The translations under genes were made by a program, and so were the position numbers. A model generated the notes under the pieces. The model was not told the origin of the DNA. It made no database searches and saw nothing but the letters and a program-made list of their open reading frames with translations. From Bacillus sp. JCM 19058 (GTDB lineage Bacteria; Bacillota; Bacilli; Bacillales_H; Bacillaceae_D), in NCBI GenBank assembly GCA_001310555.1, contig BAXO01000088.1, positions 1 through 21,781 of the forward strand: a DNA stretch of 21,781 bases. The letters run 5' to 3'. This document shows positions 3,194-19,685 of the stretch, piece by piece (within the stretch, counting starts at the first letter, position 1; every line of letters begins with the position of its first letter).

Positions 3194-3247
3194 TTAACAC
3201 AATTTTTACAATTGCTTTATTTGTTCTTAACGAAGCTTGCTTATACT
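3194..3247 (+). promoter_or_regulatory. Four-repeat PhoP box with downstream -10 element
   Basis: Hexamers TTAACA (3194-3199), TTTACA (3205-3210), TTTATT (3216-3221) and TTAACG (3227-3232) are separated by exactly 5 bp each, giving an 11-bp period. A -10 TATACT follows at 3242-3247, with no good -35 hexamer. If transcription starts near 3254, the repeats span about -60 to -22, the position known for PhoP-activated B. subtilis promoters (TT(A/C/T)A(C/T)A repeats). The box and spacing are read directly; PhoP binding is inferred. Confidence 0.75.
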
Positions 3248-3253
3248 TAAATA

Positions 3254-3365
3254 GAACGGTTTTATGGATGCCACGGCTAGGCTATAAACACCCTTTAGCC
3301 TACTTGTGGTAGCTAATAATCCCCTTGATAGGATGAAAGCATCCCCTTGCTTTCATCCTCTTTTT
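3254..3365 (+). ncRNA. Candidate PhoP-dependent small RNA, about 110 nt
   Basis: The predicted transcript starts after the Pho-box promoter and ends at an intrinsic terminator. The 5' part folds into one long hairpin (3269-3311): TGCCAC pairs with GTGGTA, then two G-U pairs and one C-C mismatch, then TAGGCTA pairs with TAGCCTA, leaving loop TAAACACCCTT. An AT-rich linker containing ATCCCCTTG (3319-3327) follows, then the terminator, whose loop holds the same ATCCCCTTG (3341-3349). These exposed C-rich patches resemble the SD-pairing motifs of Gram-positive sRNAs such as FsrA and RoxS. No plausible protein is encoded; the only ATG frame (3264) has 7 codons and no SD. The alternative is an attenuated leader for hflKC. 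Confidence 0.6.
3330..3365 (+). terminator. Intrinsic terminator of the small RNA candidate
   Basis: Perfect 12-bp stem: AGGATGAAAGCA (3330-3341) pairs with TGCTTTCATCCT (3348-3359), loop TCCCCT, followed by C and five T (3361-3365). Confidence 0.88.
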
Positions 3366-3481
3366 GATCTGGGAGGAGCTCTAAAAAGTTTATAGTTTTT
3401 TTTAACAATGCCACTTTCTAGCGGGAATATGTACTATAATGAAAAAGGTGTGCGTAAATATGAGAAATTGCGCGATGAATT

Positions 3482-5824: not shown

Positions 5825-8452
5825 TTGAAAAAAACTCATATTGGTAGATGGTAATAGTATCGCGTACCGTGCGTTCTTTGCTTTGCCGTTATTGAATAAT
5901 GATAAAGGCGTTTATACGAATGCTGTTTACGGTTTTACGACCATGCTTTTAAAAATTTTGGAGGAGGACAAGCCGACTCATATGCTCGTTGCCTTTGATG
6001 CAGGCAAGACAACCTTCCGTCATAAAACCTATGAAAAATACAAAGGAACACGGCAGAAAACTCCGCCTGAGCTCGCTGAACAATTTCAGCTCGTCCGAGA
6101 AGTGCTCGACGCCTTTGGCGTATCGCGCTACGAGATTGAAAATTATGAGGCGGACGATATTATTGGCACCTTAGCCAAAAAAAGCCGAGCAGGAAGGCTG
6201 GGATGTAAAAATTTATTCTGGGGATAAAGATTTGTTGCAGCTCGTAACTGAACACACGTCTGTCGCTTTAACGAGAACAGGAATTACGAATGTGGACACG
6301 TACGATCCGAAAGCCATCGACGAGAAATACGGCTTGGTGGCAAAGCAAATTATCGATTTGAAGGGCTTGATGGGGGATAGCTCTGACAATATTCCTGGAG
6401 TACCTGGGGTCGGCGAGAAGACCGCACTCAAGTTATTGAAGCAATTCGGAACGATTGAGAACGTGCTCGACTCTGTGGCAGAGGTGTCGGGTAAGAAACT
6501 AAAAGAAAGGCTCGAGGAGCACAAGGATCAGGCGCTAATGAGTAAGGAACTAGCGACCATCTACGTAGACATCCCTTACGAGTTGAAGACAGACGAGCTC
6601 GCCTTTGGAGAGTTCGATAAGACAAAGGTCGTATCCTTGTTCAAGGAGCTAGGCTTCTCGTCATTAATCGACAGGTTTGACGATGAGGCAGTTGAAAAAC
6701 AAGAGCTTGAAGCACTGAAATTTGAACACGTAACTCATATTACAGAAGAGCTGTTTGCTTCGCCATCGGCATTAATGGTTGAAGTGCTAGAGGAGAATTA
6801 TCACACAGCGAACATCCTCGGCTTCGCGCTAGCCAATGAACACGGTCATTATTATTTACCAACAGAGCTGGCATTACAGTCAACCGTATTTCAAGCATGG
6901 GCTAAGGACGATACTCAAAAAAAAGTGGGTTTTTGATGCGAAGCGAGCAGTCGTAGCTTTGAATCGGTATGAGGTTGAGCTTCTAGGTGTCGATTTTGAT
7001 TTGCAGCTGGCCTCTTACCTCCTTGATCCGTCACATTCTTCTCATGAGGTGAATGAAATCACTGCACGAAAGGGCAAAGGAGAAGTGCAGTCGGACGATG
7101 CCGTTTATGGGAAAGGGGCGAAGCGAAGCATTCCTGAAGAAGCGATCGTGTCTGAACATATTGTTAGGAAAGCAGATGCCATTTATCATTTGAAAGAATC
7201 GATTGAAGATGAATTAAAAGAAAACGAGCTTTACGGTCTTTTTCATGAGTTGGAAATGCCGCTGTCTATCGTGTTAGGGAGGATGGAACGACCGGGGTTA
7301 AGGTTGATCGCCAACAGCTGGAGCGAATGGGAGAAGATTTAGAAGCTCGCCTGGACAAGCTCGAGTCGCAAATTCATGACCTTGCCGGGACAAGCTTTAA
7401 TATCAATTCGCCAAAGCAATTAGGTGTTATTTTATTTGAACAGCTCAATTTACCCGTAATTAAAAAAAACAAAAACAGGTTATTCAACCTCAGCGGATGT
7501 TCTCGAAAGGCTGGCCGGAGAGCATGAAATCATCGATTGTATCCTGCATTATCGTCAGCTGGGCAAGCTGAATTCTACCTATATACAAGGCTTGCAGAAG
7601 GTGATTGATCGCCAAACGAGTAAGATTCATACCCGCTTTAATCAGGCGCATACGCAAACAGGACGATTGAGTTCAATTGATCCGAACTTGCAAAACATTC
7701 CTATTCGTTTAGAGGAAGGAAGAAAGATTCGCAAGGCATTCGTCCCTTCTGAAGCAGGGTGGAACATGCTTGCGGCTGACTATTCGCAAATTGAGCTCCG
7801 TGTGCTTGCACATATTTCCGGCGACGGAAAGCTAATTGAGGCCTTTCAGCACGATATGGATATTCACACAAAAACGGCGATGGATGTTTTTCATGTAACG
7901 GAAGAGGACGTAACCTCTTCGATGCGAAGGAGTGCGAAGGCCGTTAATTTCGGGATTGTTTATGGTATTAGCGATTATGGACTTTCGCAAAGCCTCGGCA
8001 TTACTAGGAAGGAAGCGGCTGAATTCATAGAGCGATATTTCAAAAGCTATCCAAAGGTTAAGCAATATATGGACGATATCGTCAGTGAAGCGAGGGAGAA
8101 AGGCTACGTATCAACATTGCTGCATCGGCGCCGTTATTTGCCGGAAATTACGAGCCGTAACTTTAATTTACGAAGCTTTGCCGAACGAACGGCAATGAAT
8201 ACGCCGATTCAAGGTACTGCAGCCGATATTATTAAAAAAGCGATGGTCGAAATGGCGACTGAGCTGGAGCAGCAAAATTTATCGAGCCGCATGCTGCTGC
8301 AGGTACACGATGAGCTGATCTTTGAAGTGCCGGAAGCAGAATTAAAAACGATGCTGGAGCTCGTTCCAAAAGTAATGGAGCAGGCAGTAAGCTTGAACGT
8401 TCCGCTGAAGGCAGATGTCTCCACAGGTGAGACATGGTACGATGCGAAATAA
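5825..8452 (+). CDS. polA: DNA polymerase I (five frameshifts)
   Basis: DNA polymerase I for repair synthesis and Okazaki fragment processing; about 874 aa reconstructed (880 in B. subtilis). An N-terminal 5'-3' exonuclease (LVDGNSIAYRAFFALP, ENYEADDIIGTLA, GLMGDSSDNIPGVPGVGEKTA) is followed by a 3'-5' exonuclease-like domain that appears degenerate, as in other bacilli, and the polymerase domain with motif A DYSQIELRVLAHIS, motif B RRSAKAVNFGIVYG and motif C QVHDELIFE. Start TTG 5825 is 8 nt after AGAGGGG (5810-5816). Indels: extra A in 5828-5834, 6177-6183, 6917-6924 and 7462-7469, and one missing G in 7294-7297. Each correction rejoins recognisable sequence such as LAKKAEQEGWDVKIYSGDKD and VIKKTKTGYSTSADVLERL. 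The gene is essential or near-essential, so sequence error is likely. Confidence 0.95.
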
Positions 8453-8466
8453 GGAGAGATAAAAAA

Positions 8467-9290
8467 ATGCCGGAGTTGCCAGAGGTAGAAACGGTCAGAC
8501 GCACACTAAATGAGCTTGTCTTAGGAAAGACGATTGCAGCCATTGATGTGCATTGGGGACGAATTATTAAACAGCCAGACGATGTTGAGCAATTTAAACA
8601 GGCCTTGATTGGACAGACGTTTCAGACGATTGAGCGCCGGGGGAAGTTTTTACTGTTTCAGCTCGATGACCTTGTTCTCGTCTCCCATCTGCGGATGGAA
8701 GGACGCTATGGCTTATATGAGCAAGGAGAGGATCTGACGAAGCATACGCATATCGTATTCCGTTTTGCGGATGGGAGCGAGCTTCGTTATCAGGATGTGC
8801 GAAAATTTGGCACGATGCACGTTTTGAAAAAGGTAAAGAGAGCTCAGTGCCACCTCTAATGCAACTAGGAGTTGAACCCTTTTCAAAAGAGTTTACTGCC
8901 GATTTATTAGCTGACGCCTTTCAGCGGACCAATCGAAAAATCAAGGTAGCTTTGCTTGACCAGAAAACAGTAGTCGGCCTCGGCAATATTTATGTTGATG
9001 AAGCTCTTTTTCGGGCAAAGCTTCATCCGGAACGGTTGGCAGCCTCACTTTCGACGGAGGAGTGCGTCCTGTTGCACCAAAGCATCGTGGCTACCTTAAA
9101 GGAAGCAATTGAAGCCGGGGGAAGCTCGATAAAGTCTTATGTCAATGGCCAAGGGGAAATGGGCATGTTTCAACAGAGGCTCGATGTTTACGGGCGCAAG
9201 GATAAGCCTTGCCAAACATGCGGGGCGATCATTCATAAAGCAGTGGTTGGCGGGAGAGGGACGCATTATTGTCCATCCTGTCAACGATAA
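8467..9290 (+). CDS. mutM: Formamidopyrimidine-DNA glycosylase (one frameshift)
   Basis: Removes 8-oxoguanine and formamidopyrimidines from DNA in base-excision repair; about 274 aa reconstructed. N-terminal PELPEVETVRR carries the catalytic proline and glutamate (P2, E3). The H2TH region contains VGLGNIYVDEALF, and the C-terminal zinc finger is CQTCGAI...HYCPSCQR. It starts at ATG 8467 after AAGGAGAG (8451-8458), which overlaps the polA stop, so the genes are cotranscribed. One T is missing in 8822-8825; restoring it gives MHVFEKGKESSVPPLMQLG. The gene is downstream of polA in B. subtilis too, pairing repair glycosylase and repair polymerase. Confidence 0.95.
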
Positions 9291-18570: not shown

Positions 18571-19685
18571 ATGAGCATCGATATGATTTTGGAACGTGCA
18601 GTCAACGGTGAACGAATTACCATGGACGATGCGATTAAATTATATGAAAGTGATGAAATTGAAAAAAATCGGCGCAGCTGCCAATCAAATTATGAAAAAG
18701 TGGCATCCGGATCCGGTGACGACCTTTGTGATTGGACGCAACGTAAACTATACTAATTTTTGCGATACGTATTGCAGCTTTTGTGCCTTTTATCGTCCTC
18801 CTAATTCGAAAGAGGGCTACGTATTAGATAATGAAGTGATCTATCAAAAGATCCAGGAAACGCTCGATGTTGACGGAACGGAAATTTTAATGCAAGGCGG
18901 AACGAATCCGAATTTACCGCTCAGTTATTATACCGATTTGTTAAAAGGAATAAAAAAAACGGTTTCCTCAAATTTGGATGCACTCTTTCTCACCTGCAGA
19001 AATTTGGAAGATCGCTGAAGTTTCGGGATTGTCGGTCGAAGAAGTGCTTCGAGAATTACATAAGGCTGGGCTCGATAGTATGCCTGGCGGTGGAGCCGAA
19101 ATTCTAACCGAGGAAACGAGACTTCGAGTTTCACGGCTTAAGGTGACGTGGGAGCAATGGATAGACGCCATGAAAGCGACCAAAAAGGTGGGAATGTTTG
19201 GCACGGCTACTATGGTGATCGGCTTTGGCGAGTCCTTTGAGGAACGCGCCCTGCATATGCAGCGTGTTCGCGATGCTCAAGATGAGACGGAATGCTTTAC
19301 CGCCTACATTTCTTGGTTGCTCCAGCCGGAAAACACCGGTCTGCGTCGTCTAAAAAAGCTAACACCGCAAGATTATTTACAAAACGTGGCCATTTCGAGA
19401 ATTTTTCTCGATAATATAGCTAATTTCCAATCGTCGTGGGTGACGATGGGTCCCGAAGTCGGTAAACAGTCACTTTCCTATGGCTGCAATGATTTTGGTA
19501 GCACGATGATGGAGGAGAACGTCGTTTCAGCTGCTAATACGACGCACAAAGTAAATACGAACCAAATTTTGAAGTTGATTCGTGAAGCGGGTAAAATTCC
19601 GGCGCAGCGAACCACTTCCTATGAAATAATTCGACGCTTTGACGAAAATGAAACAGCCGAAAAGGACTTCGTCATGCAAAACTAA
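18571..19685 (+). CDS. mqnC: Cyclic dehypoxanthine futalosine synthase MqnC (two frameshifts)
   Basis: Radical SAM enzyme of the futalosine route to menaquinone, cyclising dehypoxanthine futalosine; about 370 aa reconstructed. The cluster motif is CX3CX2C (CDTYCSFCAFYR). Further family stretches are GGTNPNLPLSYYTDL, HSFSPAEIWKIAEVSGLS, GLDSMPGGGAEILTE, FTAYISWLLQPENT and VTMGPEVGKQSLSYGCNDFGSTMMEENVVSAA. Extra A residues in 18662-18668 and 18952-18959 break the frame; correction gives DEIEKIGAAANQ and GIKKRFPQIWMHSFSP. Start ATG 18571 has GGGGG 10 nt upstream. B. subtilis makes menaquinone by the MenFDHCEBA route and lacks this gene. The other mqn genes are not in the window. Confidence 0.93.

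Follow-up and report, generated by a model that had tools for sequence, protein, structure and literature searches.

A predicted Pho-controlled small RNA encoded behind phoR in Bacillaceae, with conserved complementarity to the ribosome-binding site of a phosphate transporter gene

The genome of Bacillus sp. JCM 19058 contains a putative small RNA (sRNA) gene between the phosphate sensor gene phoR and hflK. The stretch analysed (the window) is the 21,781-nucleotide (nt) contig BAXO01000088.1 of assembly GCA_001310555.1. On its forward strand lie phoP, phoR, the element, hflK, hflC and polA in that order, with gene names read from the reading frames. The HflK of the window is a Band_7 protein (Pfam) and its nearest relatives are from alkaliphilic Bacillaceae, the best being Alkalihalophilus pseudofirmus at 85%. 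An earlier note on this DNA had proposed a stand-alone unit of about 110 nt here, transcribed from a Pho-box promoter. The observation is confirmed, at the level of sequence, as a complete sRNA gene with a predicted PhoP-type promoter, RNA body and terminator, and the interpretation placed on it in that note is supported in part.

The predicted promoter has a Pho box at 3194-3232 of the forward strand. Its four TTNACA-type repeats, 11 bp apart, are spelled TTAACA-N5-TTTACA-N5-TTTATT-N5-TTAACG and score 17/20. This is the sole Pho site scoring at least 15 on either strand of the window, and a score of 17 was never attained when the 691-bp intergenic stretch was shuffled 300 times. The repeats are followed by a -10 element, TATACT (3242-3247, forward strand), as the sequence pattern of the Pho regulon demands: direct repeats of this type with an 11-bp period upstream of a -10. 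A generic sigma-70 scan found no promoter, a scan that would miss a PhoP-type promoter with a -10 and without a -35. In 18 aligned relatives the repeats line up and the T-A---T columns of the -10 are invariant.

The predicted RNA is about 112 nt long (3254-3365, forward strand) and would begin at G3254, judging by the position of the -10 and a conserved GAACGG start. The sequence at its start, GAACGGTTTTAT, recurs at 2638 inside phoR, where it encodes ERFY, probably by coincidence. Hairpin 1 (3265-3315, forward strand) was expected to be a plain 15-bp stem with a C-rich loop; the hairpin is present, with 18 pairs, but the stem is broken by two mismatched positions and the loop holds only ACACCC. 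The loop is CUCAUCCCU in many relatives of the same class (class I, below). The linker carries a C-rich patch, ATCCCCTTG (3319-3327, forward strand), which is ACATCCCCTT in most class I relatives and is present once more across the terminator loop. The intrinsic terminator (3330-3365, forward strand) has a perfect 12-bp stem (3330-3359) with a TCCCCT loop within GCATCCCCTTGC and then a T run (3361-3365); linker and terminator are as the earlier note described them. The fold of 3254-3375 has a minimum free energy of -45.4 kcal/mol (z -5.15), and none of 200 shuffles folds as well.

The element belongs to a widespread sRNA family that is apparently undescribed. Its members fall into two classes, and the window carries class I. 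We collected 18 class I copies behind phoR by the string GAACGGTTT and then aligned them, so that selection explains in part why those nine bases do not vary; the covariance model built from the alignment (R1) later recovered copies starting GAACTG, GTACTG and others. On 81 sources R1 gave 26 strong full-length matches, in the window and at 25 loci, some of them training sequences; they score 47-109 bits, and the next score was 29 bits. The window, itself within the training set, matches over 3254-3365 at 80.4 bits. Among L001-L028 only L010, L020 and L025 are without a strong match.

Class II is a shorter form, GAAAACCCCUUCAUCCAAGG, at the same spot in other Bacillaceae, relatives of the Bacillus subtilis group included. 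Its usual layout is a Pho box, a -10, GAAAACCCCUUCAUCCAAGGAGCC and a terminator. The class II core ACCCCTTCAT lies in the interval upstream of hflK in 40 of 52 loci (L029-L080) and was not found within 1 kb upstream of hflK in the other 12. A class II model from 24 sequences (R2) found matches with E <=0.01 in 270 of 397 genomes from the order, and R1 matched 37 of 299 genomes; both counts include weak, unchecked matches. A variant of class II with AACCCUUUCAUCCAAGGUGUUUUC is present in six of 20 picked genomes (L508-L511, L517, L518). PDB 3cwf, a PhoR sensor domain from B. subtilis, closely resembles the PhoR of L500 (185.7 bits over 119 residues). Because of this close resemblance we count B. 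subtilis-group species as carriers of class II, the evidence coming from relatives such as L500. In some species the class I loop, CUCAUCCCUUCAUCC, resembles the class II 5' end, and we infer a common descent of the two classes.

Of the 4227 Rfam families scanned, presumably including FsrA, none attains its gathering score anywhere in the window, and none reaches threshold in 11 related loci. The best sub-threshold match is ncr1241 (RF02451), a Bacillus sRNA, with 23.2 bits on 3310-3364 where the gathering score is 60. We rejected this identity on the score and on location, as the ncr1241 of L093 is away from phoR, between aminotransferase-like and S1-domain-like genes (read from frames). In the order, ncr1241 is above cut-off in 39 of 397 genomes.

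The covariation of the stems called for by the earlier note is present in both classes. Nine class I relatives were selected because their hairpin loops are similar; among them 12 of the 25 predicted pairs show compensatory changes (hairpin 1, 6 of 12; terminator, 6 of 10), and the loop UCAUCCCU is fixed. The alignment of 18 class I sequences, in which hairpin 1 could not be aligned, shows covariation at 8 of 11 terminator pairs. All 10 terminator pairs covary in the 24 class II sequences, with ACCCCUUCAU invariant. With its own predicted promoter and terminator and without a conserved reading frame, the element has the attributes expected of an sRNA gene.

We examined 83 gene contexts, all strong-match loci (33 class I, the 30 best class II and 20 class II picked from the R2 list); the 8 weakest R1 places and most R2 places were left out. 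phoR is directly upstream in all 83. The next gene is hflK in 51 and polA in 30, and was not seen in 2. A Pho box of at least 14/20 was found in 82 of the 83, as was a -10 by a loose pattern. The single low box is at L150, where the PhoR match ends early; a 17/20 box is seen just before the L150 RNA. By homology search, phoR does not adjoin any of five weak R1 matches (L088-L092), which are excluded from the 83.

A candidate target emerged from a scan for AAGGGGATGT before start codons in 22 class I genomes, which gave 54 frames with seven families seen twice. One of the seven encodes a protein with Na_Pi_cotrans and PhoU domains that is matched by the Na/Pi symporter models of NCBIfam; it is named nptA here. 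The gene was found in 50 of 52 genomes searched (G075 and G323 had no match), and the analysis drew on 54 copies in 48 genomes, leaving aside G130 (a partial copy), G257 (34% identity) and further copies of <=50% identity. The ribosome-binding site (RBS) of nptA differs between the classes. GGG(G)ATGA occurs in 25 of 35 class I copies, in none of 19 class II copies and in 11 of 575 background RBS windows, while AGGGGTT occurs in 14 of 19 class II copies, in none of 35 class I copies and in 4 of 575 background windows. The former complements the class I loop or linker and the latter the class II 5' end.

The contiguous helix that unpaired regions of the sRNA can form with nptA is within the best 5% of background for 17 of the 35 copies in class I and for 11 of the 19 in class II. 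The longest helices, of 14 nt, are in two related genomes (G004, G142). In 30 class I genomes the sRNA pairs better with its own nptA than with permuted partners (mean -16.2 vs -14.7 kcal/mol, with p = 5e-5, the lowest value that 20,000 permutations can give), and the p value is the same for 21 dereplicated genomes, masked or unmasked. Control genes in class I relatives, a set that partly overlaps the nptA set, gave no such advantage: p was 0.48 for phoP (24 genomes), 0.84 for phoR (21), 0.09 for hflK (24) and 0.60 for polA (20). hflC was intended as a further control but yielded only 3 starts. For nptA, a target at another place in the genome, complementarity is thus conserved in relatives of the window species, and the window species presumably follows the same rule.

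Three further observations concern nptA. Many copies of both classes (e.g. L351, L356, L369) have, upstream of the RBS, a stretch resembling TTGTAGAnnTTTGTCGAA that has no obvious complement in the sRNA. The start region TTGATGAAATGG in L347 (G007) and L349 (G032) could pair with the conserved sRNA 5' end UUUCAUCAA, over 9 nt in G032, and is possibly a second seed. A. pseudofirmus (G001) has three close copies (L342, L372, L374), one of them on a different contig (C3), all with a GGG(G)ATG-type RBS.

The promoters of nptA also bear Pho-type repeats, by a score looser than that used for the sRNA Pho boxes. On the sense strand of class I promoters 23 of 35 reach at least 17/20, compared with 5.5% of 325 AT-rich background regions. 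In class II it is the reverse strand that is richer in such repeats (9 of 19, background 1.5%).

We consider it probable that the element encodes a trans-acting base-pairing sRNA, induced by PhoP~P, that represses nptA translation through C-rich patches directed at the RBS. PhoP~P would switch on the sRNA gene in phosphate starvation. The unpaired C-rich patches in the hairpin-1 loop, linker and terminator loop would then pair with the RBS of the nptA mRNA, and translation of the Na+/phosphate symporter with its PhoU domain would be blocked. Production of the RNA, its drive by PhoP and repression by pairing are all predictions. Because class I nptA has its own predicted Pho box, we propose an incoherent feed-forward loop for this class, in which PhoP would raise both the transcription of nptA and an RNA limiting its translation. 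The sRNA would then probably tune phosphate uptake at the nptA RBS.

Several points weigh against this reading. Overall significance was not reached in a gapped duplex-energy test (7 of 54 copies at <=1%, 14 of 54 at <=5%, median 34%), and the contiguous-helix score was adopted after that result was known. Against a background of GGG-type Shine-Dalgarno (SD) sequences, 10 of 30 class I genomes fall within the best 5%, with a median of 13%. Some class I genomes, e.g. G053, G114, G077, G215 and G240, have no notable helix between sRNA and nptA. Classes I and II are clades, and the contrast between them may reflect few evolutionary events. The C-rich motif is missing from some hairpin-1 loops (e.g. 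L003, L008, L017). Finally, a circuit in which PhoP induces both a phosphate importer and an RNA limiting that importer is not the simplest conceivable.

A wider reading is offered tentatively, as one that may well prove wrong. The sRNA could supply an RNA arm so far missing from the Pho response of Gram-positives, linked to phoPR throughout Bacillaceae including the B. subtilis group, with two seed architectures co-evolving with the nptA RBS and an incoherent feed-forward on Na+-driven phosphate import. It could also explain the effect of the boxes behind phoR on phoPR autoregulation, for instance by way of internal phosphate or the NptA PhoU domain, either of which would act through PhoR activity. 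For B. subtilis, PhoP~P is reported to bind boxes that lie between phoR and its terminator and to augment phoPR autoregulation by a mechanism described as unknown (PMC6232261, citing Salzberg et al. 2015). The sRNA is a concrete candidate for this augmentation. The family of the linked target is itself connected to the system: according to PMC13170248, nptA of S. aureus is dependent on PhoPR and the PhoU domain of its product influences PhoPR in turn, and B. subtilis NptA is described as without a PhoU domain.

The same report of binding behind phoR supports an alternative that we think unlikely, in which the boxes act as DNA at the phoPR 3' end. Bound PhoP~P would raise phoPR autoregulation, and the hairpins would be the 3' untranslated region and terminator, with no RNA acting in trans. 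The boxes do start close behind the gene, a median of 18 nt past the end of the PhoR match. However, a -10 follows them, by the loose pattern, in 82 of the 83 contexts, and conservation extends beyond the boxes to the 5' end and C-rich patches of the RNA, which match nptA. The two views are compatible, as the boxes could do both.

Slightly less likely again is a Pho-controlled sRNA whose main target is a gene other than nptA, the GGGG-type match being one of many as with other C-rich sRNAs. C-rich patches are able to pair with many G-rich RBSs, and the rank of nptA among GGG-type SDs is only moderate. TGAAGGGATGA also occurs at other RBS-like places, an example being the gene at L446, L452 and L456 described below. 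However, 82 distinct TGAAGGGATGA sites in the examined part of those from 29 class I genomes include 45 inside an open frame, and, nptA apart (most of its known sites were not in the sample), no gene with the motif recurs in more than three genomes. The own-partner advantage seen for nptA and not for the four control genes argues in the same direction. In three class I genomes (L446, L452, L456) the RBS TTGAAGGGATGAGG precedes a gene for an MDVYRHDL-like protein about 14-17 kb from nptA, possibly a further target. In class II, GATGAAGGGGT lies before a start in 21 of 30 genomes, some cases being the antisense strand of the sRNA itself; the loci are unannotated, so that targets are neither given nor excluded. 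Target scans allowing two mismatches were too noisy for use.

The targets suggested by the earlier note, hflK, polA, speD and ytxC, gained no support. The best helix of the window RNA with the hflK RBS is equalled by 9% of background RBS windows, and the figures for polA, speD and the ytxC site tried are 25%, 95% and 100%; the polA and ytxC starts were taken from the raw open reading frame list and may be wrong. In that list phoR (1052-2850), polA (5841-8452), a formamidopyrimidine-glycosylase-like gene (8434-9290) and a radical-SAM-like gene (18596-19685) are each split over at least two frames, which looks like assembly or sequencing indels and not like biology.

That the element is a leader or attenuator of hflKC, a concern raised in the earlier note, is very improbable. 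In the window it shares the strand of hflK and ends up about 180 nt ahead of the hflK start, but it has its own strong terminator and polA is the next gene in 30 of the 83 contexts. A small-protein gene is the least credible of all: the window RNA has a 14-codon ATG frame without an SD, but closed frames of at least 10 codons occur in 14 of 31 class I RNAs, counting that of the window, none of them with an SD-like sequence, and in 1 of 18 class II RNAs, which does have one. No reading frame is conserved, those listed being alike in close relatives only.

If the conserved sRNA of our preferred reading is wired to PhoP, it would add a post-transcriptional layer to the Gram-positive phosphate response, and the matching of seed and RBS provides ready-made compensatory pairs. 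A precedent with the same place and regulator is the set of PhoP boxes behind B. subtilis phoR, which PMC6232261 describes as boxes before the operon terminator; the phrase 'small rna' has 0 occurrences in the text of that paper. The parts available of PMC5540618, PMC3574147, PMC12471899, PMC13403408 and PMC7317962 hold nothing on RNA at this place, and a PhoP-controlled Bacillus sRNA is not described in the titles and abstracts accessible in the open-licence literature. An unnamed segment of the B. subtilis expression tables may already cover this RNA.

Among known sRNAs, the closest in kind are FsrA and RoxS/RsaE. FsrA is the Fur-controlled iron-sparing sRNA of B. subtilis. The window sRNA resembles it in its predicted control by nutrient starvation and in unpaired C-rich patches facing G-rich RBSs; it differs in having a Pho box where FsrA is under Fur, in adjoining phoR, in the lack of an Rfam match and in its comparative target, a phosphate transporter. 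The earlier note had suggested a Pho analogue of FsrA that spares phosphate. A predicted Pho-controlled C-rich sRNA agrees with that suggestion; sparing does not, and with nptA as the target a tuner of phosphate transport is the better description. RoxS/RsaE, a C-rich sRNA of Gram-positives, likewise sets C-rich motifs against SD sequences, but it has another control and another locus, and the window sRNA has no Rfam match. The element appears to represent an RNA family that is new, though its functional kind is known, and its target hypothesis is unusually well supported for one built on sequence evidence alone.
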